A DNA stretch of 64,000 bases from Aurantiochytrium sp. KH105 (taxonomy: Eukaryota; Sar; Bigyra; Thraustochytrida; Thraustochytriidae). Numbering within the stretch: position 1 is the stretch's first letter; each line of letters opens with the position of its first letter. The translations under genes were made by a program, and so were the position numbers. Positions 32,306 to 57,349 of this stretch are shown here, in pieces. The notes beneath the pieces were generated by a model, which was not told the DNA's origin, did no database searches, and saw nothing but the letters and a program-made list of their open reading frames with translations. The stretch spans positions 186,001-250,000 of the forward strand of contig BGKB01000052.1 in assembly GCA_003116975.1 (NCBI GenBank), read 5' to 3'.

Positions 32306-32623
32306 CCAAGGGAGAAGTCATCCAGGTGTTGATTCCCTCATTGTAAAAAAAAAAAGAAGAAGAAATGACTCACGCGCTGGCAAAACTCAGAAAGCGAGAA
32401 CACCAGGTCTCCTCCAACCCAATAAGTACGCAGCAAAGTCATAGATAACTTCAAAGGTGTTGTGTATTGTTTTTATGGTTTGCTTTTGGGGTGGGTGGGT
32501 GGGTGAGGTGTGATTTTTACTTTTTGCTTGAAAACGCATCAGTCAAGTCATTGAGACAGACACTAAAGCCAGTCAGAGATGGGCACATCATGACCAATGG
32601 TCGTCTTCACTGGACCCAAGGGT
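32306..32623. other. Convergent 3' flanks with an 11-base A run
   Basis: Spacer between two convergent stops. A run of 11 A followed by GAAGAAGAAA lies at 32345 onward. No gene seen. Confidence 0.45.
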
Positions 32624-34411
32624 TTAGATCCAGTTGGTCTGACCCATGAGGCCAACCTCCTTGATGACCCACTTGACCTCGGCGAGCTCCTCGTCGTACT
32701 CGAGAGTCAGACCCATGACGTAAAAGACGCCAACAATACGGTCGTCGCTTCCCTCCACGACCTCACCCTTGAGGTTGTACAGGCAGTCAATCTGCTGGAC
32801 CATGAACTGAACAAAGATCATGGGACCCATCTTGTCGACCACCTTGGCGGCGGCAATGTTCATGTCGCCAATAGAAAGGATGTGCTCATCCATCTTGCGG
32901 CCATTGCGCACGCGCTCCTGAATGGCGGCCTTGAAGGCGGCGCCGGCACCCTCCGAGCAGTACGACTCAATGGTGGGAATGTCACCGCGCAAGAAGGCGC
33001 TAATCACCGCAGGCACAATGGTGTACTGCATCTCATCCGTAAAGTTCTCGATGGAGAACTCCGGGTCGAGCTTGCGGAACTCGCGAATGGCCTCGCCCAT
33101 CTCGGTCTCACCAAAAACCGAGTCGTACGCGGAGTACATACGGTACACCATCGGGTTCTGACTCGTCTCGAGCGTCTCGCGGACGTCCTCGGCGGCGTCG
33201 CGGGCCTTTCGTGCAACCTTGGAGTCCGCAATGCCAAGGATAGAGCGGAAGATGGGGGCCTCGCGCAAGGTCTCATTGAACTTCTCCCAGGTGCCCTTCT
33301 CCTCCTCGACAAAAACCATGGCCGTGGTGTTGGCCTGAGCCGAAAGCTTTTCGATTTCCTTGCGCATGGCGCGGATCTCCCCGTTGATCTCCTTGAACTT
33401 GGCCGTATCCGACTCAGCCATGGCGGCGTCGCGAGCCTCCTCAAGCTGGCTGATGAGAGCGGACTTCTCCATGATTTGCTTCTCCAAAAACGAGGGCTCG
33501 GCCGCCTTGGCCTTGTGCGCCTCGGCGGCGTCGTGGGCTTCGTGCTCGGGGGCCTTGACGATCTTGGCACCCTCGGGCTTTTCCCACACGGTCTGGCCTT
33601 CGTTGTTGTAGTAGTAGGTGTCGCCACTGTCCTTGTCGACGGCCTCGAACCACTCTGGCTCGGCGTCGGTCGCCTTGGCGCGGGGCTTGCGGCTCTTGAC
33701 GCCAAAGACAGCCTTGAAGGCCTCGTCCCACGAGCGATCATCGCTGCCAAAGGACTCGGGCAGCTTGGAAAGGACGGCCTGGCGGCCGGCGCTGAGGCGG
33801 CTCGAGATGCCGCTCAGGAGACCGCCGCTCGAGCTCGATTGCTGCTGAGAACCGGCATCAGCACTGGCACCGGCACCGGCACCGGCACTGGCATCGGCAC
33901 CAGCGCCGGCGGCCTTGTCCGCGCCGGCATCAGCGCCAGCGCCGGCGTCGGCCTTCTTCTTGCCGCTGCCGCCAATGCCAAACTCCTTGCCGAGGTCGCG
34001 GAAGAAGTCGCCGACGGTCTCGCCCGCCTCCTTGGCCTTTTCTGCGCCTTCGCTGACCTTTTCGCCGCCCTCCTTGATGCGCTGCTTGGCCTCCTCGGAG
34101 GCCTTGTCGGCGGTCTTGCCAAAGGACTCGGCGGTCTCCTCGACGGTCTTGTCGCCCACCTTGGACTGCTTGAGCTCCTCGAGCGTCTTCTTCACGTTCG
34201 GGTCATTCTCGACCTCCTTGCGGATCCGCGCAAAGAAGCCCTTGTCCGCGTCGCTCTTCTTCTTGTCGTCACCGCCGCCGCTGCCGCCGCTGGCCGCAGA
34301 GAACCCTCGCGCCCACAGCGCCTGCTGCTGCTGCTGCTGCGCGCCCCAGGTCCTGCGCGCGCCGCCCCACTGCGCGAGGCCGCGCGCGCCCGCGCCCGCT
34401 GCCCTGCGCAT
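32624..34411 (-). CDS. TIM44: TIM44-like mitochondrial import motor subunit with an internal WW domain
   Basis: A 595-residue single-exon protein. The start MRRAAGAGARGLAQWGGARR and on to ARGFSAA is a matrix presequence. Residues about 60-145 carry the TIM44 N-terminal features (FFARIRKEVENDPNVKKTLEEL, then helical KEAGETVGDFFRDLGKEFG). A Gly/Ala/Asp repeat (about 154-187) follows. At about 253-281 is a WW domain (PEWFEAVDKDSGDTYYYNNE, then GQTVWEKPEG) with both Trp. A coiled coil (about 300-370) leads to the C-terminal Tim44 domain (FSIENFTDEMQYTIVP, IGDMNIAAAKVVDKMGPMIF, DDRIVGVFYVMGLT). TIM44 tethers mtHsp70 to TIM23. The WW insertion is not part of yeast or human TIM44. Open sequence upstream of this ATG is Arg-rich and rejected. 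Confidence 0.88.
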   Translation of the reverse strand: MRRAAGAGARGLAQWGGARRTWGAQQQQQQALWARGFSAASGGSGGGDDKKKSDADKGFFARIRKEVENDPNVKKTLEELKQSKVGDKTVEETAESFGKTADKASEEAKQRIKEGGEKVSEGAEKAKEAGETVGDFFRDLGKEFGIGGSGKKKADAGAGADAGADKAAGAGADASAGAGAGASADAGSQQQSSSSGGLLSGISSRLSAGRQAVLSKLPESFGSDDRSWDEAFKAVFGVKSRKPRAKATDAEPEWFEAVDKDSGDTYYYNNEGQTVWEKPEGAKIVKAPEHEAHDAAEAHKAKAAEPSFLEKQIMEKSALISQLEEARDAAMAESDTAKFKEINGEIRAMRKEIEKLSAQANTTAMVFVEEEKGTWEKFNETLREAPIFRSILGIADSKVARKARDAAEDVRETLETSQNPMVYRMYSAYDSVFGETEMGEAIREFRKLDPEFSIENFTDEMQYTIVPAVISAFLRGDIPTIESYCSEGAGAAFKAAIQERVRNGRKMDEHILSIGDMNIAAAKVVDKMGPMIFVQFMVQQIDCLYNLKGEVVEGSDDRIVGVFYVMGLTLEYDEELAEVKWVIKEVGLMGQTNWI

Positions 34412-34956
34412 CTTCGCTCGCGGCGCCCGCTGAAGTCGCTCGCCAGCCTCGCGCGCTTCTCGGCGTCGCGGCCTCGCGCGCGGCGCCTCGCCGGGCCTAG
34501 CTCCGCGCACACGCCGCGCACGCGCGCGGCGAGACCACCTCCGGACGCGCCGTTTCCTGCGCCGCGATCTCCGCCTGCGCCTCGGCCTCTCTCGCGCGCG
34601 CGGCGGGCTCCAGCGCGCGCCGAACGGGCTCCGTGCGACTCGGGTTGGCGCTCTGCCCGCGCTGCCTGCGCTGCTTGTGCGGCGCCGCGCCGGGGCGGTG
34701 CGCCTGTTACGGACCCGGCGCGGGGCCCCGATTCGCGCCGCGCGCGGGCGCCGCCGCTGCTCGCTGATAGGAGAACCGGCGCGCGCCGGGTCCGGTGCGG
34801 CGCACGCCTGCTTGCGCCCCTGTGGCGCGCGGCACCAACCATTCCGGCAATTCCGCACTGCAGAATCCAGACCCCGCCGCGCGCGCGACGGAGACGCGCG
34901 GGACCGCGAGCGCTGCAGCCGGCCGCCGAGCCTGCGTGCCTGCCTGCCTGCGTGTG

Positions 34957-34991
<35 letters not shown>

Positions 34992-35019
34992 TCGTCTGCG
35001 TGGAGAAGTGAAATCCAAG
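34412..35019. promoter_or_regulatory. Divergent promoter region of TIM44 and the Dbp3-like helicase
   Basis: About 600 GC-rich bases between two divergent starts. A TGCG microsatellite (about 34948-34990) lies just upstream of the helicase gene. Confidence 0.5.
34948..34990. repeat. TGCG microsatellite
   Basis: About nine TGCG units in the helicase 5' flank. Confidence 0.9.
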
Positions 35020-36783
35020 ATGGGCGCCGCCGAGGACAAGGCCGCCAAGAAGGCGCGCAAGGCGCTCAAGAAGGAGAAGAAGATGAAGGAGCTGGAGAAG
35101 AAGGACAAGAAGGCCGAGGACGAGGAAGACGGCGAGGCCGAAGAAGAGGTCATCATCTCCAAAAAGGACAAGAAGGAGAAGAAGAGCAAGAAGAAGGGCA
35201 AGAAGCGGCCACTCGAAGAAGCGACCAGCGAAAACGCCGATGCCGACGCCGAGGAGGACGCCGAGGACGACTCGGAAACGAAGTCCGACAAGAAGAAGAA
35301 GAAGGATAAGAAAAGCAAAAAGGACAAAAAGGAAAAGAAGAACAAGAAGGCCAAGACCGAGGGCGCCAGTGGGAACACTGCCAAATCGGGCGCGACAGTC
35401 CCTGCCGCCGATATTTCCCAGTCCGAGGTCGATGCCTTTCGCAAGGAGAAACGCATTACTGTGGACGGCGACATGGAGGTCTTTCCCTACACGACGTTCG
35501 AGATCGCGCGAAAGTGCTTCGCGGATGTGGCCATGCCGCCTCTGAACGCGTGCTGCAAGGGTTTCAAGACGCCTTCCCCGATCCAGGCCCAGGCGTGGCC
35601 CATCGTCCTTGCCGGTCGCGACATGGTCGGCATTGCTCAGACCGGCAGTGGCAAGACGCTTGCCTTTCTCTTGCCCGGCTTGTGCCGCATGTTGCAGGGC
35701 GACTATGGCCCCGGAGGTGCGGCTGCGCCCCGCGCGCTCGTGCTGGCCCCCACGCGTGAACTGGCCATGCAGAGCGCCAAGGTCGCCGAGCAGGCGTGCG
35801 CAGCGTGCGACGAGCTCTCGGCTCTTGTGGTGTTTGGCGGTCAGCCCAAGTGGGAGCAGCGCAAGAAGATCCAGACGCTCAGCACTCTGGACATTCTCGT
35901 CGCGACCCCGGGTCGTCTGCTCGACTTTGTCAACGACCAGGTGATTGACCTCAGCAGGGTGCACTACCTCGTGCTTGACGAGGCGGACCGCATGCTGGAT
36001 ATGGGCTTTGAAAAGGACGTCCGTCGTATCATTGACATGTGCGCCCCGCGCAGTGACGGGCGCCAGACTGTCATGTTCTCCGCGACGTGGCCCACGGAGA
36101 TTCGCAACCTGGCCTCGAGCTTTATGGAGAACCCAATACGAGTCACGGTCGGCAGCGACAAGCTCGCAGCCTCCACGTCCGTGACCCAGATTGTCGAGGT
36201 GGTGGAGCCCTTTGAGAAGGAGCGCAAGCTGCTGGCTCTGCTGCGCAAAATCCACGATGGCAAGAACCGCATTGTTGTCTTTGGCCTCTACAAGAAGGAA
36301 GCCGCCAACCTCGAGCGCGCACTCCAGCGCAACGGCTTCAAGGTCATGGGTGTTCATGGCGACAAGCTTCAGAGCGCTCGTGAAGAGGCTGTGCGCAAGT
36401 TCGACTCGGGCGAGTTCCCGATTCTCGTGGCCACGGACGTTGCCTCGCGCGGTCTGGACATCAAGGGTGTAGAGTACGTCGTCAACGTGACCTTTCCGCT
36501 CACCGTCGAGGATTACGTGCACCGGATTGGTCGCACGGGTCGCGCCGGCGCCAAGGGTACGGCTTATACATTTTTCACACAGCACGACAAGCACCTTGCA
36601 GGTGCCCTGCAGAACGTGCTGCGCGAGGCCGGCGAAAAGGTGCCTGCGTCGCTGGCCAAGTTCGGCAACTCCGTCAAGAAGAAGGAACACAAGCTTTATG
36701 GCTCTCACTTCAAGGAGACGGATGGACCTATGAAGGAAGCCTCTCATGTTACCTTTGGTGATGACGATAGCGACGACGAGTGA
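35020..36783 (+). CDS. DBP3: DEAD-box ATP-dependent RNA helicase, DBP3-like
   Basis: A 587-residue single-exon protein. The first about 115 residues are Lys/Glu/Asp repeats (KKEKKMKELEKKDKK, KKDKKEKKSKKKGKK), the hallmark N-terminus of yeast Dbp3, a nucleolar helicase of 60S subunit biogenesis. All DEAD-box motifs are present in order: Q motif FKTPSPIQAQAWP, I AQTGSGKT, Ia PTRELA, Ib TPGR, II VLDEADRML, III SAT, then RGLDIKGVEYVVN and VI HRIGRTGR. The C-terminus ends in an acidic DDDSDDE. The start is the ATG after AATCCAAG, directly before the Lys-rich segment. DDX5-like assignment is possible but the charged tail and short C-terminus favour Dbp3. Confidence 0.88.
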   Translation: MGAAEDKAAKKARKALKKEKKMKELEKKDKKAEDEEDGEAEEEVIISKKDKKEKKSKKKGKKRPLEEATSENADADAEEDAEDDSETKSDKKKKKDKKSKKDKKEKKNKKAKTEGASGNTAKSGATVPAADISQSEVDAFRKEKRITVDGDMEVFPYTTFEIARKCFADVAMPPLNACCKGFKTPSPIQAQAWPIVLAGRDMVGIAQTGSGKTLAFLLPGLCRMLQGDYGPGGAAAPRALVLAPTRELAMQSAKVAEQACAACDELSALVVFGGQPKWEQRKKIQTLSTLDILVATPGRLLDFVNDQVIDLSRVHYLVLDEADRMLDMGFEKDVRRIIDMCAPRSDGRQTVMFSATWPTEIRNLASSFMENPIRVTVGSDKLAASTSVTQIVEVVEPFEKERKLLALLRKIHDGKNRIVVFGLYKKEAANLERALQRNGFKVMGVHGDKLQSAREEAVRKFDSGEFPILVATDVASRGLDIKGVEYVVNVTFPLTVEDYVHRIGRTGRAGAKGTAYTFFTQHDKHLAGALQNVLREAGEKVPASLAKFGNSVKKKEHKLYGSHFKETDGPMKEASHVTFGDDDSDDE

Positions 36784-36865
36784 AATTTGCCCAAATCAAC
36801 ACACAACACAAAAACAAAAACATTATTGTCTGCTTTTCACGGCCTTTCAATCACTTTCTATCTCT

Positions 36866-43981: not shown

Positions 43982-45955
43982 TCACGGAGAGACCGCGGCA
44001 AGACCCGCAACGCGCGCCTCGTGCTCCTCGCAAAAGACAGCTGCTGCATCCAAAGACCCCTGGAGTGTACCCTTGAGATCTGCAAGCGACTGCGCAACGT
44101 TCTCCTTGAACGAGAGAAAGCTGTCCACAGCCATGTGCAAGTCATCGTCGAGGGCCTCAATCTCGGTCATGTGGTCGGTAGCCTCGCTAGCCAGGCGATC
44201 GCGAAGAGCCTCGAGAGTCTCTTCCGCCTCCCGCAGCGGTTCCGCAAGCTGTTCCGCATCAAGCGTCAGCCGGTGGATGTCCTCCTCGACGGCCTCAGTC
44301 TCTGCGGCACGGCTTGCCAACTCAGCGTCCATGGCGGACTTGTCTTGCTGCAGCTGTGTTTCGGCCTCCTGGAGGCGCTGCTCCAAACCACGAATCACGC
44401 TGCGCACCGCCTCCTGCGCCTCGTCATTCTCCTCGACCTTGGCGTGCAATTCCATGTTGCTAGTACGAATTTGATGCGTCTTCTTGATCGACTCTTCTCG
44501 GAGATCCTGCAGCGCAGACGTGATGGCACCCACATCGGCGCGCTCGCCCTGGCCTGTCGCTTGATCTGCACCAAGAGAGACTAGCATGTTACGCCGCGTG
44601 TCGAGACGCAACTGGATATCAGCGCCCTGGCGCTGTTGGCCTGCGGCTGCCGCCTGGGTCAACTTGAGCGACTTGGCGATTGCATTGTATTCCTCGAGGA
44701 GCGCCTCGATGCGCTGCGTGCGCTTCGAAATGGACATTTCCACCTCCCATGTTTCATTCTGCATGTCATCACGCTGCTCTAGCACCGTGTTGCACGATGC
44801 CTCCAGAGACCGCTTCTCTTGTGTCATGCGCTCTGCATCCGCCGGGTTCAACTCCTGCTCATCGAGGATACTCTGGACCTTGGACTTGGCGTGCTCTGCC
44901 TGAGCCAGCTCGACCTCCTTGGCGCGGACCTCGGCCTCGCGCTCCCGCACCTTGGCGACCATAATGTCCTTGTTTTCTAGGAATTGGCGAATGAGCTTGT
45001 CCCACTTGAGCTTGTCGCTCGTGAAATCGCGTTTGCGCTGCTCCAGCTCTGGGATCAAACTCTGTTTCTCCGATTCGAATTCCAGGTCCTGGCCTAGGTC
45101 TGAACGCTTCCGCTCCAGATCCGTAATCTCCTCCTCAATGACCACGTCGCGCTCGCGGAACTTGCCCGCCAACTCGGCGTCGAGCTCCTCGTAACGGTTA
45201 TCGTCGCCACACAGAAAGCACTGGTACGCCTTTCGAATGTACGTGAAAAAAATACGGTCAATGTCCTCCTCCGAGGCATCGTCGTCGTCGTCCTCAGAAA
45301 GTCCAGCCAGCTCGTCATACTCGAGCAGTTCCACGAGCCACACGAGCGACGCCAGTAGCGCAGGCCACGTATGCGGGCTTCCCACGGCAGCAAGCGAGGT
45401 CTTGCTGATGTTGAAAGGGTACCTGAGACCCTTCATCATGACGGTCACCTCGTCTGCCACCTTGCTGCCGAATTTGCGGCTTGGATCAAGCATACGAAAG
45501 AGAAAAATAACCACATGCTCAAAGTCCTTGCCTGTCGGCCGATGCAGGATCTTGGGCGAGAGCGCCTGGTCGTAGTTGTGCTCCGAAAGGAATCGAATTA
45601 GCGTTTCGATGCACTGCGCCCGAAAGCTCTTTTCATTAAGAGGACGCGGGTCGCTCTTGAGCGCGCTCGTTGCGCTGCCCATGGTGGCGATCGACTTTCT
45701 GCGAGACGCCACAGAGACTGTGGACTGACGACGATTGCCCCCATGCATCGACGCGCCTACCGTGGGCATCATGGACATGCGTTTGTTCGCCTTGGCTTTC
45801 TTCGCCGTCGTGCCCATTCCTCCGCCCAGCGAATACCGGGGCAGCGTCGTCCCGGGACCGAGCGACATGCGCGTTTTCGCCGGCCCACCGCCGCCCATGT
45901 TCATGCGCGAGCTCGACACGCGCCCCAGCGCGGGTCTCCGCTGTTGACTCTGCAT
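43982..45955 (-). CDS. NDC80: Kinetochore protein NDC80/HEC1
   Basis: A 657-residue single-exon protein, typical NDC80 length. The first about 100 residues are a basic, Ser/Arg/Gly-rich tail with several RRxS-type sites (RRKSIA, RRQSTV), the tail that Aurora B phosphorylates in other species. The calponin-homology domain follows at about 105-215 (FLSEHNYDQALSPKILHRPT, VVIFLFRMLDP, LRYPFNISKTSLAAVGSPHT and WPALLASLVWLVELL), matching yeast and human NDC80. The rest is a long coiled coil to the C-terminus, which pairs with NUF2. The complex links kinetochores to spindle microtubules. The N-terminal MQSQQRRPALGRVSS is a conserved-looking start. Confidence 0.93.
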   Translation of the reverse strand: MQSQQRRPALGRVSSSRMNMGGGGPAKTRMSLGPGTTLPRYSLGGGMGTTAKKAKANKRMSMMPTVGASMHGGNRRQSTVSVASRRKSIATMGSATSALKSDPRPLNEKSFRAQCIETLIRFLSEHNYDQALSPKILHRPTGKDFEHVVIFLFRMLDPSRKFGSKVADEVTVMMKGLRYPFNISKTSLAAVGSPHTWPALLASLVWLVELLEYDELAGLSEDDDDDASEEDIDRIFFTYIRKAYQCFLCGDDNRYEELDAELAGKFRERDVVIEEEITDLERKRSDLGQDLEFESEKQSLIPELEQRKRDFTSDKLKWDKLIRQFLENKDIMVAKVREREAEVRAKEVELAQAEHAKSKVQSILDEQELNPADAERMTQEKRSLEASCNTVLEQRDDMQNETWEVEMSISKRTQRIEALLEEYNAIAKSLKLTQAAAAGQQRQGADIQLRLDTRRNMLVSLGADQATGQGERADVGAITSALQDLREESIKKTHQIRTSNMELHAKVEENDEAQEAVRSVIRGLEQRLQEAETQLQQDKSAMDAELASRAAETEAVEEDIHRLTLDAEQLAEPLREAEETLEALRDRLASEATDHMTEIEALDDDLHMAVDSFLSFKENVAQSLADLKGTLQGSLDAAAVFCEEHEARVAGLAAVSP

Positions 45956-46704
45956 CGTGCGCGAATTCCTCTCGCTCCCCTCCTTCGCGCCGCTCGCGTC
46001 GCTGGCCTGTTCCCGCCTGCGCGTCCCGTTCGAGCTGTGCTTGCGCCCGCGGCGCAGACTCCTCGACGTCCTCCGCGAGCTGTTGCTACCTGCTGCTCGG
46101 GTCCCGCCCGAGTTTTTTTCCCACGACCGTTACACACCTGCCCGACCTGCACCGGACTCGGAGTATACTAGTATTGAACATGTTAAGGTGGTGCGATGAC
46201 GCTTGTGCAAACGCAGCGGACCCGCGTCATGCTTTGAACCCTCACCCCAATAATAATCTTGGAGGGAAGGAAAGAGACAAGACGACACAAGCAAGAGAAC
46301 AAGAAACAAAGAAACAAAGAAACAAAGAAACAAAGAAACAAAGAAACAAGGAAAGACGCAATCTTTATCGATGCATTTCTCGGTGAACAAAAAGGTGTAC
46401 AAATAGAGACAAATGGATGATGGTCACTGAGATCTATATGCATCGAAAGCGTGCATCAATACAATGTCACGTGAATACCATGCGCTGGCTTAGCTGGCTG
46501 GCCTACGCAGTGAAGCAAAAAGCAAGGCTATAACATGCATGCCTACCTACCTGAGTGCCAACCTTACCAGACAACAATACAAAATTTACTGTCGCCCAGT
46601 CGGTCGGTCAGTCACTCACTCCATTGGCCAAGCAATAAATCAGAATCATAAAGTTCATCAGCCCATCAATGGCACAAAAGGCTGATGCGCAGATGGGACT
46701 TTGT
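45956..46704. other. Spacer between NDC80 and the giant DENN gene, with an 8-bp repeat
   Basis: The left part (45956 to about 46150) should hold the NDC80 promoter. An AAACAAAG array lies at 46303-46350. The right part is A+T-richer and is probably the 3' end of the giant gene. No gene seen. Confidence 0.5.
46303..46350. repeat. AAACAAAG octanucleotide repeat, about 6 copies
   Basis: Tandem AAACAAAG units in the 3' flank of the giant gene. Confidence 0.9.
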
Positions 46705-49700
46705 CTAGCCGCCAACAGCATCGTTCTCAAGGCCGCTCGGAACTGTAGCTGCCAGAGATGAGAGATCCTGAATCTGAGGAGCATCACTCGGGCGCGAAAA
46801 CTTGTGAGCATCCACAAAGCTTTGCACATCGGCCTGAAGGTCCACGGTTTTAAGGGCCTCATGCGAGACCTCCGTAAGCTCTTGGAGCTTGGTTTCCAGA
46901 CGCTTGTGCCAGAATTGAAGTCTCTCATGAAGCGAAATGAGAAAGTTGAACTGGTGCCGCTCAAGGTTGTCATATTTGCGCATTACGCGTGCGGCCTCGT
47001 TGCGATACAGACGCTGAAAATCAGCATACTTGTCGTTTGCGGCCATGTTGTTTTCCTCGGCCTCTCGAAGCTTGCGCCTGGCAGCCCCCACCTTGCGTTG
47101 CTTTCGATCTGTACCGGCTTCCTGGGTGATGTAATTACGATGGTAGTCCTTTTGCTCGCATTCATCAAGCGCTGCGCGAGCCTCAATGACTTTGTCGTTC
47201 GCGCGCGTAAGCGCGTTGCGGACAACGGCCCCGTTCCGCTTCAAATTCATACGAATGTCATTGATTTCCTTGAGATACTGCTGGCAGGTGTCCGCCATCT
47301 CCCGCAGTGAGTTCATCAAAAGATGATCCGACGCGTTGAGACACTCCATCATTGAGCCCACCTGAGCTGTCCATGACTTGTGCACATTATCAATTGCCAT
47401 GAAAAGAGTGCTGACCTCCTTTGTTGGCCCAGACTTGCCATCCGCCACCGAAGCGACGACAGACAATGTTCCATCTGTAGTTGCCTCATCGTCATCGTCC
47501 GCACCATCGCATGACCCAGCTTGTTTGGCCCCACCAGGCAAAGCTTCGGATCTCTCACCTAGAATACTCGTCAACGCGGATGCGCCATCAAGGCCAAAGG
47601 TGTTAGCGTCCAACTCTGTGACGTTGCCTCCGCCCTCTCCAGAGTCTGAACGCGCCTGCGAAGTGAATGACGTCACGGAAGGAGACGCTGACGAGACAGA
47701 CAGCAGAGGTGCCCCGGCGGGTACCTCCGAATGTGCATACGCATTTCCTGACCGATGCGATGCCCCCGAGCGATGCAAAGATCCTTGCCCCGGCACTAAG
47801 TGACGGATGCGTTTCCGAAAGTGACGAATCGAATGCCCAGGACGCCGCAACGAGTCAAAGCGTGCTGTGCCCGTGGTTGACGTTGACCGCGAAGAGGCGC
47901 CCCGCGTGGGCCGATCCATCGAGGCCAGCGACCGTGGCGACCCTGCGTCATCGTCAGCGCCCGTCGTACCATTGTGCAGAGAATCTTCATAGCCGTTCGC
48001 TAGCTTGCCCTGCGTGCTCGACTGAATTAGCTTGCGCTTCTTCATCAAGTCCCGCTTGCTCAACAAGAGCACGGGGAAACGGTCAATCTGATCCTGCGCT
48101 TGCCCAATCACCGACTTCATCACGGCCAGACGCTCCGGGAGAACTTCCAGCAGGCTCTCGCAAATAAGTTTCGAGTGCAGAATCACTGTCTCAACTTCGT
48201 CGCACCGCACGGGGCGCTCACGTCTGCCTGGCGAGTCGTGCAGGACGGGTCTGCGCAAAAATGCATGCCGTGACGAGGTAAACATTTTGGAAAGCTGCGC
48301 AACAGCACTCGACGGACTCAGCGACTGCTTGATACTGGAGGCCATCATTGATGCACCGCCAAGGGTGCGAAGCGACTCTCGCATACGCCGCTCGTGTCGT
48401 GACCCCGAGAATGTCCGCGATGGCGCTGAATCAGTCAGCAGAACCCTCTGGTCATCCGCTGTCGACGTGCTGCTGTAACTCAGATGCGCGCTGTCCGTGT
48501 CACGAGGTAGACGCGACAGGGAGTCAAAGAACCCATTCGTGTCCATCGCAGCGAGATCGAGAACCGCATCGTTGTCACCCTCCAACACAATAGGCTCCTC
48601 GGTCGTGTCCAGGGCACGTGAACGCTGCGACATAAAGGGAGACTTCTTGGCATGATCCAAGGAAATTTCTTGTACAGACTCCACAAAGGACTGCAGGTAC
48701 TGCAAACACGATGACAACGCGTCCGTGTACCCATTCTGCATAGAAACTAAAAGCTGTGAAAAGCACGTCTCGTAAACCTGCCGTGCGCCCATGTAGGCCT
48801 TTTCTGACTCCGACTTGGCCTTTTTCGCCTTCTCGCACTCGTCGCGCAATGCAAACAGCTTCTCGCATCGTCGTGACTCTTCTGATCGCGAGCGAAATTC
48901 AATGCCGCGCATCGATGCCTCGCACTCGTTCATCTCCGCTTCAACACGGGCAAGATTATCGCGCGAACTCGTAAATCGATCACGCGCTTGCATCAGGTCT
49001 ACTTCCGCATTATCCTTGCTTCTCACGTACTCGAGCAAGTCACCGTTCAATGATCGCTTGCTCGCACGTGCATCCATGGTCAGGGTACTCAACGCTGCAT
49101 GTAGTTCAGTCAGCTCCTCCATCTCGTTCGTAATACTTGCAAAAGTCTTGAGGAAGAGGTCGTCAAATGGATCAGCATCGCGTCGCTGCTCCAAGAGGTT
49201 CAGCGGCACATGACCTAACTGAGCACATAGTTTTTCAAGATCGTGTGTCGCACGTCGCTGCGACTTAGCGAGGCCGTCTGTGTGCTTATACAGGGACTTC
49301 ATGCGATACTTGAGCTCGTTAAATCGTAGCACGAGCGTTCCAAGGCTGCGACGCATGTAGACCGCAAAGAGACGCCCCTCCAAGCTCACAGAGTCCACGG
49401 AGTCAAAACGCCCAGATCGTCGCTGACCATTGGCGTCCAAAACCGGCACCATTGCGTTTCCTCCTTTGGGCGTTTCTGCGTCACCCTCCGCACCCGGCGT
49501 GTCGCTCCCCTCAGGACTCCCTCGGTCCTTGGCCGAGGCGCTTCCCTGCCCGGCGCCGTCCTCGTAATCATCAGTTTCGTCGCCATCCCCCTGTCGCTTT
49601 GCTTCGCTGGTGCTATCCTCAGCAGTCTTGGAAGGAATCATACCTGCCATCGAAGGGTGACGCGAGAAATGGTCCAATGCATCATCAAGGTATCGCTTGG

Positions 49701-52700
49701 TGCGTTCGTCGAGGTCCTTGTGTCGACGTAAATCTTCCTGGGGGTCCACCTTGCGAACAGCCTCCATCCGATCCGTGATGGCAAGCTTGACAACCTCCCT
49801 CTCGGCACGAAGGCTTTCAACAAAGATGTTGAGCTGACGTACACTCGTTGTCACGCGATCGACCTCAAGCGCACAGAACTCTGCATACGCGACTTCCATC
49901 CAGCGTCGGTATTCATTCGTAACCACCTGGAGGGCCTTGCGCTTTGCGTCACGGTCACTCGACAGGATTGTCTCTTCTTCAGCATAATCTTGCAGCTTCT
50001 TGGCCAAACGCTCCTGCTTCTTGTGAGCATGTGCGAGACGGTCGACGTCCGAGCTTTTTAAAACACGTTTCACGGCGCTCCGCAGACCTCCGCGCTGGTG
50101 GTGGGGGGCGTGATCATCCGAAGCCCTGCGGTCGGGCTCACTGCCAACATTCGAAGCGGCGCGGGTTTGGCCTCCATCGCCACCTCCAGCACCACTTCCA
50201 TCAGCAGCAAGAGCAGACGCAGGGGCGCGGGCATCACTGTCGGAAGATGAAGATGAAGAAGAAGCCGAGAGTGCGTTTTCTTGCGCGCCCACAACCTGCT
50301 CTTGCAGCTCGCGTGCTTCCTGGCCCGCTCGCGCCAAATCTTGCAAGACCCTTTCTTTGTCCAGACCCTTTGCAGCGAGCTGCTGCTCGGCCTTTTTCAC
50401 ATTCTGCTCGGCGACTAGCTTGCGATTCAACAGTTCCTCGTGCGCGTTGTTCAGATTCATAGAGCAGTTAATGACGAGACTGCGCAGCTCCTCCGACATG
50501 CGCGCGAGCACGCTGTTCATAACATCTGCGTTGTTGGACATGGTGCTTGCCATGATTGTCATGCACTCTTTGACGCGAACGAGAGCATTCTGCAGCGTAC
50601 TTAGTTTGCCATCTTTGCGCTGAAAAGCAAGCCCCACCCCCATGGCCTCCACGGTGGTGTGAACCTTATCCGCAAGAGTCCGCATGGCCATCGTACGGTA
50701 GCTAGCAGAGTCGTGACTTGTTTTGTAAAGCGCTGCAACCCCATTCATCCACTCTTGCCATTCCGCGAAAACGTCCTCGCGGTCCGTGTCAGTCCCGTGC
50801 GGACGCGTACTCATACTGGGAAGTGAATCTCGGAAAGGATACTCGATATCACGCGCATTCTCGACGCCCTGCGCGACAATCTCTCCTGGTGTGGGACTTG
50901 AGCACGGCGCCGTTGCTTGGTTTCCATTCGGATCAGAGGCGTCAGTGCTCGGACCTGCCTCGGTACGTGCATGCGGCTCAACATCAGAAGTTTCAGAGAC
51001 ATCCTTGTCGGCATTGCTCTTCATTTCCTCTGTTGCATCCGCACCGCTGCTGCCCTTGTCCAAACCAGCACTATGCGGTTCGCGTTGTGGCAAAGGCGTT
51101 CGCCAGATTGGCGACAAGAGTGCCACGTGGAGACTCTCAAAGGAGTGCTGGCGGTGCATTACCATCCAGCGATACAGGATATTCATGAGCTCCTTGAGAT
51201 GGTTCTTTACGTTTTTGATGCGCGTCCGCTCCGTCCGATGAAATGTCTGGAGATTCTCAGAATTTGCCTCAGTAAAATTGGTTAGCTCCCGCGTCAATGA
51301 TGCAACGTCCTGGGCGAATTGGAGCCTTGCAGCTCGCAACGTGCGCTTTGCAGCGACCTTGCGATCGAGCACACGCGCCAGCTCGCTTGTAGACACATGA
51401 TGGACCCGACTTCCGTTCTCGTAACCGCTGCGGCTTGGCGTTGCACTCGGTGGCGAGGAAAAGCCACCAAGTCGATCGACCGCGCTGCGGCTCTCGGTAG
51501 TAGATGAGTCCGTCACGGCGTCCTCGTTGTCAAGGTCATCGCGACTTGAATGTGAACTCAAGAGAGTGCGAGAAGATTCAAGCGGGGCAGTAGTCGCTGC
51601 GCGGATGCTCGACAGCCCTGGTGTCTCGGATCGACGCCGAAACCGCTGTGAGCCAATGGGACGTTTGCTTAAAAAGGTCGTTGACGCACGACGCCCGCTA
51701 CTACGGCTTGATGCCTTCGCGGAAGAGTTGGAGCTTCCACTATGGCCCGACATGGCAATGTTGAGGCTGACATCATCCGTGAAGATCCCAGATGCGAGCG
51801 TCGACTTTACATCAATGGTACCTGAACCACTCCGCCGCGCTTCAAGTTCGTTGCCAGCGTCATCATTGGCGAGAGGGCATCCTTCATCGCCCTCCCCACG
51901 CAGGAGGTCAGGCGAGCAAACGTCGCCGTTCTGGCTCAGATTATCCTCCTCATCGTCAAGAGACCCGGCATCGTCGACCTGACCGATGTCCTCGTCATCA
52001 CACCAATTCCTGTCAAAGAGGTCTCCCGCAGATGCTACCGAATGCGAGGAATACATTGAACCTTCCGATCGAGGCACGGTGCGAAGCGATTGCTCCGAGC
52101 GCGGGCTTCCCAGCGTCCCAAATCGAGACTGCACTGAGCGGGGCGAAGCGAGGTCAAAGGTGTCCAGGCCCCCTACCTGGGAGGCAGGTCCGCTGCCAAC
52201 GCTCGCTGGCGTCTGTCCACTCGTGCTGCTTTCGTGACGCCCGGGCATGGGGCCCAGGGGGGAGGCACCAGCGGACGCATCGGCCGAGCTTCCGAACCCT
52301 GGGCGCCGAATCTTGCTTCTCCTCGACTTGCGCTGCGCGGGTGTGGCACTTCGAAAATACTTTTGCAATGCAAAGGCTTGCTGCGTGCGGCTCGTCTCAA
52401 GTGTCTGGCGCTGTAGCTGCGCCTGCATCTCCACAAAGATCTTTTCGATGTGCGCGAACTCGTTCATAGCAATCTCCTTGCGCTTCTTGGATTGCTCCAT
52501 GGCCGTCTTTCGCGAGGTGATGTTGCTCATGTGTTTCTCCTCGGATGAAGTGAGGATATCGTACGCATTGCGAAGCTTCCGAATTACTTCCTTGAGCTTG
52601 CTGCTAAGCTTTTCCGACAGCTCCTTGGCCATGTCCCTACAGAGCTTCACCTGTCTCTCGGCCTCTTGCTGGACAGCAGACCACACAGACCCTCGCATGT

Positions 52701-55700
52701 ATGGATTTGGCTCAAAGTTTGGATTGAGAACGCGTGTACGTGGTTTGCCCTCCTGATCACGGAATGCTTTGTCCATGGTAGATGCGTACTCTTCGAGATG
52801 CCGAATGACACCCTCAATCACACCATGCAGCTGGCGTACATCCTCCAGGCCGGCCAAGGCGTAACGCTTGACCAGACTGAAGCGTGCACGAAAGAGACGC
52901 TGCTTGGTGAAAAAGGAGAGATTTACACTCTCGAGAACATGAGAGACCTTGTCGACGTTTCGAAGAAGGTGCGAACCGCGGCGGGCTCGAATGAGACTCG
53001 GGACAGCTCGCGGCTCTGGAAGCGCGTTCCAATGCAAGGGGTCGGGAAAGGCGCGCGAGTTCATCCGGAAGAGTCCAGCACCCACGTATTCAGCCGCAGC
53101 GGGAGGGGCTACGTCATAATTCGATCGATCGGCTTGCGAAGTATCGTCGAGGAAGGAAGCTTTGATGGTGTGTTGGCGACTGGAGTCGGTTGATGCGCTC
53201 ATGTCCCCGTTCAACGTCGCATTGACCATCACAGAGGGTGGCGGCGTGGTTCGTGCCTCCTTGACGAGATCGATCCAGGCGTCGAAGAGCATGATTTCAA
53301 AGTTGTGTTCGGCCGCAAAGACGCGCGAATCGAAAAAGGTTTGCATCATTTGCGTGGAAATGAACTCGTTCAGGAACTCGCGACTTGTTGCTGTGTCCTT
53401 GTGGTCGCGCAAGAATGCCTCGCGATCAATGAGCTCATCGCCATCCTCCTCAAGCCCCCCCATGTACCACCGGTAATCGCCAATCAGAGTGACAAAGAAC
53501 TCGACAAAAATTCTGCGCACCGTGTTGTTGAACTCCTCAGTCGAGGCGTCCACAACAGGAGCGAGCTTCGCCGTTGGTTCCTCCTCGAGAAAGTCGGTCA
53601 CGATTCGATGGGAGGCTGCCATCTCCAGCTCGGCACTCGGGCCGCTCGACAGCGCGCTCGAGTCCGAGTAGCGCTGTGGCCTCCGCCGGCGACTGTTGCG
53701 TCGCTCGCGAATACTTGCGGCTCCTAGCGACTCGCGCTTTTGCTTTTCGATGGGTCGATCCGCACCACTTTTCACATAGACGTAATCGCGAAGTGGGTAC
53801 CACAATTTCTGCTTCAGGATGCGAGGAGGCATGAGGGGCAGCTCACGATCCGATGGAAGCTCCACTATGTTTTCGTCGAGATCGACAAAGACGAGCGCGC
53901 TGTACGAGTTGCGATCTCGCGGAAGCTGAGAACGATGCATGCCAATAAGAATAGGCACGGGCGAATCAAGGAGGCCGGTCATGGAACTTGGGAGGACAGG
54001 AATGATGTTGCTTTGCCACTTCAGAGGCCATAAAAGTGCCAAAAGACCAGAGATGACATTGGACAGCAGATCGAGCCGGCTTGTCACCAGCAAAATGGGA
54101 TTCTCGAGAATAAGGGCGGAAAACAGGTTGAGCAGGTTCTGTGCGCCCAAACTCTCAAACAGAGGACGGAGCGGCACGTTGAGAAGCGGCAGGCGATTCA
54201 ATGGCGGCTTTGAGCAGGTGAAGTAATGAGGCATGTCGTCGTGAAGTTTGAAGCGAACGCGGTACTTGCCCGGCGGCGGTTCCGGCACCTCGAGAAGCAC
54301 ATGCTGGAGACACCGTTCGAGGGGCACAGGAAGAGCATCTTTTTCGCGAACGATGCGCAATATTTCGCGAAGGATCGCACCATAGAGCGTGTAAAATGGA
54401 AAAGGTGACACTAACGCGAGAGTCTTGGGCTCGTAAGGGTCCCACCGGGCGAGAGTTTCTGCAGAAAAATCCGCAAACGTTTCCTTGAGCGTCTGTACTG
54501 CAGCGAGGCGAATCTCTCGGCAGTACTGGACCGCGAGGTCTTCTCCTTGCAAGGCGTCATCCAAATGGTTTATAATGTCTTCCGTCACAGCTGTTGGCGG
54601 TGATGCAGGTGGTGCAGAACCAGGCGTAACGGTTGCCTTTTCGTCCATGGGCGACTGAAGAGGCGTAGCAAAGAGATGTTCGCTCGGACTAGCCTCTCCA
54701 TTTAAGATACCAGTATCTTCCCCATCCTCCTCCTCCTCCTCGCTGCTAATTGCGCCAATCGATGCACCATCGTCGTTGTCATCGCCGCCGCCGCCGCCGC
54801 CGCCAAGCTCGGTTCTCTTTTTCGCGCTATGGAAGCGAGCCTCTTCGAGAGAAACGAGGCTTGGCAGCGAGTCCGAGTCAGCGTCCGAGTCTGCGACCGC
54901 ATCCTCCTCGACATCAGCCGTCTTGTTATGATCGTCGCTGCCCTTGCGAGTCCCTGTGGCCTCCATTTCGTTGCCTTTGCCCTCGGCAGCTTGGTCCTCG
55001 GCAGCAGCTTGGTCCTCGGCCTCGAGAACTTCTGCAAGCGCTGCTCGCTCATCTGCCTCCTTGCGCATGCGAATTGTTTCCGCGAGTGACGCCACATACT
55101 CTTCTTCCATGAGATTCTCCATGGGGCCACGGTAATGCAGGAGATAGCCATCGAGAAGAGTGTTGAAGCGCGATTGGTTTTCCGGTTGGTCGGCAGCGTC
55201 TCCAAGCTCGCGCTGAATGCTGTCAAACTGCTGACAAAATTTGAACCAAACCATCTCGTCCTCTGTCGCGCAGCGTTTGGCAAGGTACTCGGAAAAGGAG
55301 CGCGTGATCCAATCGCTTCGCGCGCGATCTCGTTTGAGGACCTGGTCCAGGGAAATGTCTACAAAGCGGGCCCGAATTTTGTCAGGAACTGGGTCGTAAA
55401 ATGCAAGGCAAGTCCCGTGCGTCATCTGGTGCATTTCGTTTGTGATGAGAAACGAGTAATCTTGCACGCGGCCGAGGTCAGCATCGTGGGCTCCGCCCTG
55501 ACGTATAGACATTCCGATGGGGTGACAAAACTGACAAAGCGACGGATTGAGAGGTAGATCGGCGTAGTTTTCGGCGGGGAAGCGGTCCTTGATAATGCCA
55601 GGCAAATCTACACAGAAACTCGGGTCCAGAAGATCGAGTTTTGCGATTGAGCCCTCGGCCAAGGCACGTCGCCAGTCGATACCAGTGGCCGCAAAGTATG

Positions 55701-56994
55701 TTGCGACAGTAGGCGGCCGTTTTCGTGCCATCGTCTTGGCAGTGCTCTTCACAGTGGGCGAGGAGAACATTGCGTTTTGCGCAGCTGCGTGGTTCATCTG
55801 AGATGCCGCCCCAGCGGTGCCTGGACCGCTGAACCCCGATCGTTGTCCAAAGCGCTCGGGCCTTGCGTACGAGTTCGCACGCGGGCTGACGCCGCCGTCG
55901 GCCCCTCGCATGTTAGCCCGAAACTCTGGATCAGTAGTATCGAGTGCCATAAGCCGGAGAGAAGGCGCGGCAGCCGCGGCATTTGCAATAATTTCTGCCT
56001 CTTGAGCAGCGGCCTCTGCGTCATCATCATCATCGTCATCATTATTAATATCGGCCCGATCATCATTTTGTTGATCAAAATGACGGATATTATCTCGTTG
56101 CTCATGTTTTGTGCCATTGGGGAAAAACTCGTTCGAGCCGCTTGGCCGATGTTCTCTTTGCTCAGTGTCCACGTTCCCGCTGCCAGCGTCGCCATGCACA
56201 AAGGGCGTCTGCATTTCGAACTCTACGCCAAGCGCCCCGATACCATTTTCGTTGTGATCAAAAGGCGGGGACGCTGCTGAGGACGGCGAGAAGAGATCCT
56301 CACTGTCATCATCCTCGCTGCAATCGTCATCGTCGTTTGCATCGCCATGGCTGTGCAGATCGTTGCGGAGGTGGTCGTCCGGGCCCACTTCCTCGCTTTG
56401 ACCAAACTCGTCCACGTCCTTGTAGGACGAAGAGTCTCCCTCACGCAACAGCTCTGCAGCGATGAAATCGCCTATGATGCGGCGGCGGCTGCCGCTGCCG
56501 CCGCTACCCTGTTTCACCTCATGATGCGAGTCTCTGTCCTGCTGGCTCTCCTCGTCAGAGGCAGCCTCGGACTCTGAGCTTGTTTCGCTGAGATTGGCGA
56601 TGATTTCCCCGGCTAGGTTGTCGGTCGCGGCTGCAAGTTGTTCAAACTCTTGCAGCTCACGTTGCATTCGTCTTTGCGGCCCGTTACCCATGGACGCATC
56701 TGATTCCATTCCGTTGCCGTTTAATAGAACCACGTCGTGGCTATGAATGTCTTCTTCGCCGCTGTCATTTTTGTTGTCGACATTGGTAGCGGCTGCGCTA
56801 AATTGACTGCCTTTTCTTGCCTGGGTCAGCTGGCGATTGGGGACTCCTTGTCTTGCTTGCACGAGGTCGTCTTCGTTGCTATCTTCGCTGTCGTCGATGT
56901 CATCAGGATGCAAGGTTCGCGTGGATTGGATATTTTCGCGCCGAATGAGAAACTGGTCCTGGGAAGCCGTTTTGTCATGTTGATCAGTGTCCAT
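46705..56994 (-). CDS. Giant DENN-domain protein with multiple BAR/F-BAR-like coiled-coil blocks (3,429 residues, one exon)
   Basis: One uninterrupted 10.3 kb frame. Residues 1 to about 430 are acidic and disordered. A uDENN-like segment (PIGMSIRQGG, DYSFLITNEMHQMTHGTCLA) lies at about 440-560. The central DENN domain is at about 860-1065 (VSPFPFYTLYGAILREILRI, FESLGAQNLLNLFSALILEN, LWPLKWQSNIIPVLPSSMTG). A dDENN-like segment follows at about 1155-1250. DENN proteins are Rab GEFs in known cases. After this come several amphipathic helical blocks at about 1370-1540, 1865-1960, 2075-2390, 2535-2780 and 3200-3380, with Lys/Arg-rich long helices such as ELSEKLSSKLKEVIRKLRNA that resemble F-BAR or BAR cores. 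They are separated by Ser/Asp/Glu-rich linkers. No membrane helix is seen. The DENN call is firm; the BAR-like call is inference. Start: first ATG in frame, MDTDQHDKTAS. Confidence 0.85.
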   Translation of the reverse strand: MDTDQHDKTASQDQFLIRRENIQSTRTLHPDDIDDSEDSNEDDLVQARQGVPNRQLTQARKGSQFSAAATNVDNKNDSGEEDIHSHDVVLLNGNGMESDASMGNGPQRRMQRELQEFEQLAAATDNLAGEIIANLSETSSESEAASDEESQQDRDSHHEVKQGSGGSGSRRRIIGDFIAAELLREGDSSSYKDVDEFGQSEEVGPDDHLRNDLHSHGDANDDDDCSEDDDSEDLFSPSSAASPPFDHNENGIGALGVEFEMQTPFVHGDAGSGNVDTEQREHRPSGSNEFFPNGTKHEQRDNIRHFDQQNDDRADINNDDDDDDDAEAAAQEAEIIANAAAAAPSLRLMALDTTDPEFRANMRGADGGVSPRANSYARPERFGQRSGFSGPGTAGAASQMNHAAAQNAMFSSPTVKSTAKTMARKRPPTVATYFAATGIDWRRALAEGSIAKLDLLDPSFCVDLPGIIKDRFPAENYADLPLNPSLCQFCHPIGMSIRQGGAHDADLGRVQDYSFLITNEMHQMTHGTCLAFYDPVPDKIRARFVDISLDQVLKRDRARSDWITRSFSEYLAKRCATEDEMVWFKFCQQFDSIQRELGDAADQPENQSRFNTLLDGYLLHYRGPMENLMEEEYVASLAETIRMRKEADERAALAEVLEAEDQAAAEDQAAEGKGNEMEATGTRKGSDDHNKTADVEEDAVADSDADSDSLPSLVSLEEARFHSAKKRTELGGGGGGGDDNDDGASIGAISSEEEEEDGEDTGILNGEASPSEHLFATPLQSPMDEKATVTPGSAPPASPPTAVTEDIINHLDDALQGEDLAVQYCREIRLAAVQTLKETFADFSAETLARWDPYEPKTLALVSPFPFYTLYGAILREILRIVREKDALPVPLERCLQHVLLEVPEPPPGKYRVRFKLHDDMPHYFTCSKPPLNRLPLLNVPLRPLFESLGAQNLLNLFSALILENPILLVTSRLDLLSNVISGLLALLWPLKWQSNIIPVLPSSMTGLLDSPVPILIGMHRSQLPRDRNSYSALVFVDLDENIVELPSDRELPLMPPRILKQKLWYPLRDYVYVKSGADRPIEKQKRESLGAASIRERRNSRRRRPQRYSDSSALSSGPSAELEMAASHRIVTDFLEEEPTAKLAPVVDASTEEFNNTVRRIFVEFFVTLIGDYRWYMGGLEEDGDELIDREAFLRDHKDTATSREFLNEFISTQMMQTFFDSRVFAAEHNFEIMLFDAWIDLVKEARTTPPPSVMVNATLNGDMSASTDSSRQHTIKASFLDDTSQADRSNYDVAPPAAAEYVGAGLFRMNSRAFPDPLHWNALPEPRAVPSLIRARRGSHLLRNVDKVSHVLESVNLSFFTKQRLFRARFSLVKRYALAGLEDVRQLHGVIEGVIRHLEEYASTMDKAFRDQEGKPRTRVLNPNFEPNPYMRGSVWSAVQQEAERQVKLCRDMAKELSEKLSSKLKEVIRKLRNAYDILTSSEEKHMSNITSRKTAMEQSKKRKEIAMNEFAHIEKIFVEMQAQLQRQTLETSRTQQAFALQKYFRSATPAQRKSRRSKIRRPGFGSSADASAGASPLGPMPGRHESSTSGQTPASVGSGPASQVGGLDTFDLASPRSVQSRFGTLGSPRSEQSLRTVPRSEGSMYSSHSVASAGDLFDRNWCDDEDIGQVDDAGSLDDEEDNLSQNGDVCSPDLLRGEGDEGCPLANDDAGNELEARRSGSGTIDVKSTLASGIFTDDVSLNIAMSGHSGSSNSSAKASSRSSGRRASTTFLSKRPIGSQRFRRRSETPGLSSIRAATTAPLESSRTLLSSHSSRDDLDNEDAVTDSSTTESRSAVDRLGGFSSPPSATPSRSGYENGSRVHHVSTSELARVLDRKVAAKRTLRAARLQFAQDVASLTRELTNFTEANSENLQTFHRTERTRIKNVKNHLKELMNILYRWMVMHRQHSFESLHVALLSPIWRTPLPQREPHSAGLDKGSSGADATEEMKSNADKDVSETSDVEPHARTEAGPSTDASDPNGNQATAPCSSPTPGEIVAQGVENARDIEYPFRDSLPSMSTRPHGTDTDREDVFAEWQEWMNGVAALYKTSHDSASYRTMAMRTLADKVHTTVEAMGVGLAFQRKDGKLSTLQNALVRVKECMTIMASTMSNNADVMNSVLARMSEELRSLVINCSMNLNNAHEELLNRKLVAEQNVKKAEQQLAAKGLDKERVLQDLARAGQEARELQEQVVGAQENALSASSSSSSSDSDARAPASALAADGSGAGGGDGGQTRAASNVGSEPDRRASDDHAPHHQRGGLRSAVKRVLKSSDVDRLAHAHKKQERLAKKLQDYAEEETILSSDRDAKRKALQVVTNEYRRWMEVAYAEFCALEVDRVTTSVRQLNIFVESLRAEREVVKLAITDRMEAVRKVDPQEDLRRHKDLDERTKRYLDDALDHFSRHPSMAGMIPSKTAEDSTSEAKRQGDGDETDDYEDGAGQGSASAKDRGSPEGSDTPGAEGDAETPKGGNAMVPVLDANGQRRSGRFDSVDSVSLEGRLFAVYMRRSLGTLVLRFNELKYRMKSLYKHTDGLAKSQRRATHDLEKLCAQLGHVPLNLLEQRRDADPFDDLFLKTFASITNEMEELTELHAALSTLTMDARASKRSLNGDLLEYVRSKDNAEVDLMQARDRFTSSRDNLARVEAEMNECEASMRGIEFRSRSEESRRCEKLFALRDECEKAKKAKSESEKAYMGARQVYETCFSQLLVSMQNGYTDALSSCLQYLQSFVESVQEISLDHAKKSPFMSQRSRALDTTEEPIVLEGDNDAVLDLAAMDTNGFFDSLSRLPRDTDSAHLSYSSTSTADDQRVLLTDSAPSRTFSGSRHERRMRESLRTLGGASMMASSIKQSLSPSSAVAQLSKMFTSSRHAFLRRPVLHDSPGRRERPVRCDEVETVILHSKLICESLLEVLPERLAVMKSVIGQAQDQIDRFPVLLLSKRDLMKKRKLIQSSTQGKLANGYEDSLHNGTTGADDDAGSPRSLASMDRPTRGASSRSTSTTGTARFDSLRRPGHSIRHFRKRIRHLVPGQGSLHRSGASHRSGNAYAHSEVPAGAPLLSVSSASPSVTSFTSQARSDSGEGGGNVTELDANTFGLDGASALTSILGERSEALPGGAKQAGSCDGADDDDEATTDGTLSVVASVADGKSGPTKEVSTLFMAIDNVHKSWTAQVGSMMECLNASDHLLMNSLREMADTCQQYLKEINDIRMNLKRNGAVVRNALTRANDKVIEARAALDECEQKDYHRNYITQEAGTDRKQRKVGAARRKLREAEENNMAANDKYADFQRLYRNEAARVMRKYDNLERHQFNFLISLHERLQFWHKRLETKLQELTEVSHEALKTVDLQADVQSFVDAHKFSRPSDAPQIQDLSSLAATVPSGLENDAVGG

Positions 56995-57349
56995 GTCTTC
57001 AATTCTGCGCAGGTCCACGGCGCATCCACAAATGAACAAAGAGAAGCGCAAGAGACCGTTTCGACGTCTTACAGAAGAAGGACGACGACGACGACGACGA
57101 CGACGACGTCAAAAGTAGAAGAATTACTAGAAGAAGGACGGAGTGGTGAAACGAAAAGTTGCGTAGCCCTCCCGTTTCACCTTTGGTACATGTTACAGCC
57201 AGCTAGCCAGCAAGCACGCCAGCCAGCACGCCAGCCCGTCCGCACGCCGGCCTGCCGGCCAGCCCTTGCGCCCCTCGCGGCCTCGCCCCTCGCGGCGCTC
57301 TGCGCAGGCTCCGCGGGCCAAGCCAAGAGCGACCCGCGCGAGACACAGC

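Follow-up and report, generated by a model that had tools for sequence, protein, structure and literature searches.

A predicted DENN regulator joined on one chain to a probable BAR-type tail ending in an F-BAR unit in Aurantiochytrium sp. KH105

Overview of the Gene

A window of 64,000 nucleotides from the thraustochytrid Aurantiochytrium sp. KH105 (assembly GCA_003116975.1, contig BGKB01000052.1, positions 186,001 to 250,000; all coordinates below are those of this window) carries a minus-strand open reading frame of 3,429 residues at 46705-56994. Sequence comparison indicates that it is one coding frame, that its N-terminal part holds a tripartite DENN module and that its C-terminal end is an F-BAR unit (unit 4). 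We hold it somewhat probable that this intron-less-looking gene encodes a DENN regulator that continues into a series of BAR-superfamily units ending with this F-BAR, and that the tail places the DENN module. The features of the protein are as follows, in N- to C-terminal order.

46705..56994, minus strand: whole open reading frame, 3,429 residues; second copy at C62:231248-241588, pN/pS 0.17
55399..55593, minus strand: uDENN (longin-type), residues 468-532; Pfam PF03456, E 1.9e-8
53869..54432, minus strand: central DENN, residues 855-1042; Pfam PF02141, E 8.5e-39; DENND1A (6ekk), E 3.7e-17
53281..53427, minus strand: dDENN, residues 1190-1238; Pfam PF03455, E 2.7e-5, 24.6 bits for a cut-off of 26.8
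52339..52899, minus strand: first half of probable BAR-type unit 1, residues 1366-1552; ATG17_like, E 2.7e-4 for 1331-1560, below the cut-off
51418..52338, minus strand: Ser-rich low-complexity insert in unit 1, residues 1553-1859; from composition; pN/pS 0.14 for 1546-1860
51100..51417, minus strand: last helix of probable BAR-type unit 1, residues 1860-1965; F-BAR profile, 6.2-9.0 bits at last-helix positions
50260..50772, minus strand: first helices of unit 2 (the weakest), residues 2075-2245; AlphaFold helices only, pLDDT 56
49711..50064, minus strand: last helix of unit 2, residues 2311-2428; hhalign score 22.9, reached by 2 of 100 shuffles; in hmmsearch, -6.1 to 3.5 bits depending on the frame
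48610..49413, minus strand: probable BAR-type unit 3, residues 2528-2795; Pfam BAR, E 8.3e-4; F-BAR profile, 3.1-7.1 bits depending on the copy
47935..48174, minus strand: stretch 2941-3020, by a guess the split-off first helix of unit 4; from reading of the sequence, no profile match
46759..47433, minus strand: F-BAR unit 4, residues 3188-3412 (match 3206-3406); hhalign P 7.7e-7; hmmsearch 19.8-27.6 bits

One Continuous Coding Frame in Two Copies

The frame starts with ATG, ends with TAG and contains no internal stop, in a window whose G+C content runs from 52 to 69%. The remaining five frames of the same DNA each contain 71-162 stops, and the longest open run among them is 228 codons. Relatives were sought in the PDB and in the organism's own genome (76.0 Mb in 367 contigs, about 2 x 38 Mb if two haplotypes are present). 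The partner copy found on contig C62 is also open; it encodes 3,446 residues and is identical to the window copy at 3,321 positions. Over 3,429 aligned codons, the two copies show 202.5 synonymous and 113.5 non-synonymous differences, corresponding to a synonymous proportion (pS) of 0.084, a non-synonymous proportion (pN) of 0.0144 and a ratio of 0.17. Along 19 segments, linkers included and with small substitution counts in each, the ratio ranged from 0.00 to 0.50 and pN was below pS in all 19. Its value was 0.14 in the DENN core, 0.13 between the DENN core and unit 1, 0.14 over the Ser-rich insert and 0.00-0.18 in the units. In the protein-level alignment, the copies also differ in length at five places, 17 codons in total, and the frame is kept throughout.

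Since no segment looks non-coding and both copies stay open, these sequences are by far best read as a single continuous gene. The 3,429-residue frame drawn earlier from the letters alone (the sequence-only reading) is thus real, and its further claim of a single exon is supported by frame continuity and selection. It had also named two or more genes as a possible outcome. Such an arrangement, or spliced transcripts making the frame one on paper only, appears most improbable to us: the start codon was chosen simply as the first ATG (at 56994, with a possible upstream extension to a TTG at 57051 and in-frame stops slightly beyond), but pN lies below pS in every segment including the linkers, and the five length differences all preserve the frame.

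A Tripartite DENN Module

The sequence-only reading had described a central DENN domain flanked by u- and d-DENN-like segments, and all three parts are recovered by Pfam, in order, on one chain. The dDENN part scores slightly below its cut-off but lies at the right position, and the comparison with DENND1A adds a weak stretch over the same region (3.4 bits). Among solved chains, those of DENND1A and DENND1B are the only ones matched at E<=0.01, a match that does not fix the subfamily; the search of PDB sequences with the whole protein returned, besides these two, a pair of ribosomal-protein chains (E 1.2 and 2.4). The module is a predicted regulator of small GTPases, and it may act as a guanine nucleotide exchange factor (GEF) of a Rab protein. 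A preprint, in the sections considered here, describes monomeric DENN proteins as possible GTPase-activating proteins (GAPs) of the Arf family, a point that counts against a Rab-directed function (PMC12803157). Because Avl9 and DENND6A are reported there as Arf-family GAPs, it is worth keeping in play that the module could be such a GAP, or an exchange-inactive scaffold, and that the tail would then place a GAP rather than a Rab GEF. We regard this as quite unlikely, as the module is recognised by the classical models for uDENN, DENN and dDENN and matches DENND1A/1B, and the same sections of the preprint treat DENND1B as a Rab35 GEF (PMC12803157).

The genome has 21 DENN places, most of them in pairs of near-equal score. 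Eleven other DENN frames were scanned with Pfam (two of them, L011 and L012, cut at the locus end), and none gave a BAR-type match at E<=0.01. Five carry extra modules (PPR, RGS plus PDZ, C2, ENTH and ankyrin repeats, on L013, L015, L016, L017 and L019), so that the mere fact of a DENN fusion does not stand out in this genome. These Ank-DENN, C2-DENN, DENN-ENTH, RGS-PDZ-DENN and DENN-PPR proteins are thus fusions like the present one, but of another kind.

Unit 4 as an F-BAR

When the C-terminal half of the protein was used as bait, the search reached F-BAR proteins of the same genome (E 0.0014-0.002), with the match lying within unit 4. In the reverse direction, the N-terminal 400 residues of an own-genome F-BAR protein, which find the C30/C87 pair at E 5.5e-19, returned both copies of the DENN protein (E 0.004 and 0.0096). 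The nearest relatives of unit 4 in the genome are the protein pairs C14/C76, with two SH3 domains, and C30/C87, with one SH3 domain by reading. Their frames of 490-923 residues have an ordinary F-BAR layout, unlike the giant DENN chain.

Of 177,635 distinct PDB sequences, 23 were matched at E<=10 by a profile built from just C14 and C30, and all 23 are F-BAR chains; the best are PSTPIP1 (9e-10), CIP4 (3e-9) and FBP17 (7e-7), and syndapins, Imp2, FCHO2 and GAS7 are found among the further ones. It follows that the genome holds true F-BARs and that this profile skips ordinary coiled coils. In hhalign, unit 4 aligns with an F-BAR profile that includes known F-BAR proteins such as PSTPIP1 and CIP4, with P 7.7e-7 and a probability of 92%, a result that none of 100 shuffles equalled. 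A profile made from own-genome sequences only gives the tail 10.1-11.5 bits, with no shuffle of 600 exceeding 4.5; after PDB F-BAR fragments had been included in the profile, the tail reached 22.0-26.1 bits and the highest of 600 shuffles 8.6. If residues 2955-3020 are joined in front of unit 4, the score is 33.0 bits, the best of 300 shuffles 9.7 and the reversed sequence -2.8. The match of unit 4 begins at about position 74 of the 290 profile positions, the FCH-like first part being missing or split off.

A further control came from a panel of 300 distinct frames of at least 200 codons, coding or not, taken from the fetched loci and the window. The training F-BARs rank first (360-378 bits), and the copies of unit 4, where a frame contains it in full, come right behind them. 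They are followed by the C189/C29 pair (10.3-11.6 bits), and then by a mixed group made up of the organism's own BAR-SH3 and SNX-BAR proteins (7.1-9.3), unit 1 (6.2-8.1), unit 3 (the C62 copy at 6.0-7.1 and the window copy at 3.1-4.2), a further BAR pair (3.1-3.7) and unit 2. Six of the eight BAR or SNX-BAR frames that pass the Pfam cut-off score 3.1-9.3 bits with the F-BAR profile, a span that also takes in the scores of units 1 and 3. Out of the 258 remaining frames, a single one reaches 3 bits (5.2), and reversed frames reach at most 3.1.

Some results weigh against an F-BAR at this place. A single-sequence search of the PDB with unit 4 comes back empty at E<=10, and the case for it therefore rests on the profile. 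The Pfam FCH model gives no match at E<=10 in the protein, and the scans of the whole chain against Pfam (E<=10) and NCBIfam (no family at all at E<=0.1) reveal neither BAR nor FCH. The FCH model also matches nothing across the genome despite the F-BAR proteins present there, so this search cannot show absence; as the organism's own F-BAR protein C14 is missed too (its only match of the kind is GMIP-like_FCH, E 0.0055), the test has low power here.

It could be argued that the C-terminal two thirds are a plain coiled coil, such as a tether or golgin-like rod, and that the F-BAR match is an artefact. The long helices, some weak matches of unexamined nature (E about 0.001) around the linker of unit 2 and the empty single-sequence search of unit 4 would be in line with this view. 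We judge it very improbable, since all PDB chains picked up by the C14 and C30 profile at E<=10 are F-BAR chains, Ndc80, the coiled-coil protein encoded in the window, scores -3.5 bits, and shuffles never reach unit 4. Moreover, a made-up 88-residue coiled coil matches 224 Pfam families at E<=10, and units 1 to 4 match 13, 2, 5 and 3, respectively. Plain coiled coils, an outcome with which the sequence-only reading had reckoned, are thus not what these comparisons point to. Profile comparison, controlled with shuffled and reversed sequences and with real frames, identifies unit 4 as an F-BAR, and at the level of such comparisons the proposed union of DENN and F-BAR on one chain is supported.

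Two observations concern other F-BAR-like proteins of this genome. The frames L024:136-2820 and L044:961-2478 encode SH3-bearing F-BAR proteins that the Pfam FCH model does not find, so that family searches may undercount F-BARs in this lineage. The frames of 734-745 residues at L047:535-2769 and L050:562-2763 (the C189/C29 pair) show an F-BAR-like last helix and an N-terminus that resembles TPR by eye; they possibly represent another divergent F-BAR protein.

Units 1 to 3

The sequence-only reading had counted at least five basic, BAR- or F-BAR-like helical blocks in the tail. Unit 1 is split by the 307-residue Ser-rich insert. Its top Pfam family is ATG17_like (E 3.6e-5 without the insert and 1.7e-3 with it; 23.9 bits for a cut-off of 43), and the match spans both 1366-1552 and 1860-1965 once the insert is left out. 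As these two stretches behave as halves of one domain, the number of units has to be lowered to four, and the BAR-type character is better graded from unit to unit. Atg17 is a crescent-shaped helical protein. For unit 3, the top Pfam family is BAR (E 8.3e-4; 19.5 bits for a cut-off of 28.5), and for unit 2 Pfam gives no BAR-type hint. Because the Pfam scores lie under the curated cut-offs, units 1 and 3 are called BAR-type here and not members of the BAR superfamily.

Many observations tell against an extension of the BAR assignment from unit 4 to the whole tail. The F-BAR profile is no general BAR test, as shown by a BAR-RhoGAP frame pair that has the best Pfam BAR scores of the genome and scores about -7 bits with it. 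It is only through their last helices that units 1 and 2 match this profile; scores are negative for the first half of unit 1 and for the first helices of unit 2. In hhalign, 5, 2 and 10 of 100 shuffles are as good as units 1, 2 and 3, respectively, and for the profile score the numbers are 6, 18 and 8 of 300. Reversed unit 3 even beats unit 3 itself in hhalign (20.3 vs 17.1) and in the profile score (5.7 vs 3.2), but the latter order is not kept once unit 4 is added to the profile. In single-sequence searches of the PDB, unit 3 finds three non-BAR chains (E 0.95-1.2), the first half of unit 1 finds one designed protein (E 1.8), and neither finds a BAR chain. When the genome was searched with unit 3, with unit 2 or with the first half of unit 1, the second copy was the only relative returned, apart from weak unexamined matches.

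Structure prediction of the blocks as dimers had been suggested as a check. It was carried out for units 2 and 3 as single-sequence monomers, with mean predicted local distance difference test (pLDDT) scores of 56 and 52, which is too poor to prove a fold. For unit 3, AlphaFold2 without relatives predicts three long helices, of 63, 88 and 85 residues, and two short ones; such lengths are in keeping with a BAR domain. Foldseek finds 17 PDB matches for this low-confidence model, none of them below E 1; eight are BAR-superfamily chains (ACAP1 twice, FCHO2 three times, Hof1, SNX1 and APPL2, all at E of at least 1). The model of unit 2 consists of low-confidence helices, and none of its 11 Foldseek matches is a BAR protein. 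The long helical blocks are thus modelled at low confidence in units 2 and 3, and in units 1 and 4 they come from reading of the sequence. As to their charge, the word basic proves true of unit 1 alone (net charge +20 without the insert); units 2 and 3 have a net charge of 0 and unit 4 of +1. Net charge does not decide F-BAR status, because the reference F-BAR sequences span -6 to +11 (CIP4 -2, FBP17 -6, C14 -4).

These results leave room for a simpler protein, in which unit 4 alone is BAR-type, as a single C-terminal F-BAR, and units 1 to 3 are unrelated helical spacers or bundles. The poor separation of units 1 to 3 from their shuffles, the poor models of units 2 and 3 and the PDB searches without a BAR chain would fit this layout, as would the fact that units 1 and 2 do not gain when the profile is extended by unit 4 or by units 3 and 4. 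We nevertheless consider it somewhat unlikely. Unit 1, in every frame that holds it, and the C62 copy of unit 3 outscore 258 of the 258 other frames of the panel, and the window copy of unit 3 outscores 257 of them. The top Pfam families of units 1 and 3 also argue against unrelated spacers, and the partial matches of units 1 to 3, some of them negative in score, line up with the appropriate helices of the profile. Given the shuffles, the behaviour of reversed unit 3, the last-helix-only matches and the BAR-less PDB searches, units 1 and 3 probably belong to the BAR superfamily on these sequence criteria, and unit 2 is possibly BAR-type.

Three lines of argument add little. Treating the units as repeats of one another was rejected, the block alignment showing 13-20% identity and 2 invariant columns, which is too little. 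Charge was dropped as an argument for membrane binding, units 2 to 4 being neutral and the CIP4, FBP17 and C14 sequences not net basic. Finally, unit 2 has an F-BAR-like ending, A...VD...D, at 2412, an after-the-fact hint; the N-terminal tail has one ending of the form A...[VIL]D...D too, and other frames also contain such endings.

Proposed Function and Comparison With Known Systems

Most likely, the tail would form dimers or oligomers, in the manner of BAR and F-BAR domains, and would bind curved or tubular membrane. The membrane-bound tail would then place and concentrate the DENN module, so that a Rab protein would be activated there. The long acidic and Ser-rich linkers would allow the modules to move, and might be phosphorylated. 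A link to membrane outgrowths is suggested by the thraustochytrid host. In a bolder version, which we think unlikely, the four BAR or F-BAR units would pair within or between chains into a covalent scaffold of membrane tubes with its own Rab switch; the protein would found a DENN-multi-F-BAR class and build ectoplasmic-net membrane in thraustochytrids.

DENND1A and DENND1B (connecdenn, Rab35 exchange factors) have the DENN module in common with the present protein. They act with endocytic adaptors in trans, and we know of no BAR domain on their chains. PSTPIP1, CIP4, FBP17, syndapin and srGAP2 are the counterparts of the tail: a profile holding them aligns with unit 4 over about 200 residues, and the last helix of unit 4 ends in A...[VIL]D...D like those of CIP4, FBP17 and srGAP2, unlike those of PSTPIP1 and the syndapin fragment. 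To our knowledge, these proteins contain one F-BAR each and no DENN. The present chain, in contrast, probably has several BAR-type units, and Pfam finds no SH3 in it. DENND5A/Rab6IP1 and sorting nexin 1 (SNX1) also couple a DENN protein to a BAR protein, but there the coupling joins two proteins, and here a single chain. According to the sections of the paper considered, the DENND5-SNX1 contact in trans involves the RUN2 domain and the N-terminal region of SNX1, with a dissociation constant of 1.7 micromolar (PMC3338420).

In text searches of the open-access literature, outside which most subscription papers fall, this contact in trans is the nearest case (PMC3338420, in the sections considered), and no DENN-F-BAR or DENN-BAR fusion was found among the papers listed. 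No protein with tandem or multiple BAR or F-BAR domains was found there by titles and the starts of abstracts, and the portion of a DENN survey that was covered mentions no BAR fusion (PMC3521125). Within this literature, the architecture is new and its parts are known; the array, if genuine, would be the first with BAR-type units in tandem as far as the same literature reaches. In a thraustochytrid proteome study, as far as covered here, one candidate ectoplasmic-net protein has HHpred similarity to BAR, and the word DENN does not occur in the main text (PMC12221091). For cells in which an ectoplasmic net is probably formed, the protein described here offers a concrete candidate. Carrying on one chain two activities that mostly reside on different proteins would make the coupling of DENN to membrane curvature obligatory, which could easily be tested by cutting the two apart.

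Other Frames

PfaA-type polyunsaturated fatty acid (PUFA) synthases mark thraustochytrids. A PfaA-type PUFA-synthase frame is present in both copies, matching at 930 bits (E 1.4e-278) over positions 6-1035 of 2,582, for a family cut-off of 1,010 and with a model that gives some match in 11 of 14 prokaryotic control genomes as well. In the window, long frames overlap on opposite strands at 32594-35008 (plus) and 32627-35065 (minus), and at 34195-36795 (minus) and 34771-36780 (plus); at most one member of each pair is likely to be coding, and a Pfam scan of the frames 32594-35008 and 34195-36795 gave nothing at E<=0.001. A flavin-containing amine oxidase is encoded at 16355-18400 on the minus strand (Pfam E 2.6e-43), and the Ndc80/HEC1 kinetochore gene, at 43985-46129 on the same strand (Pfam E 1.3e-42), adjoins the DENN-BAR frame.

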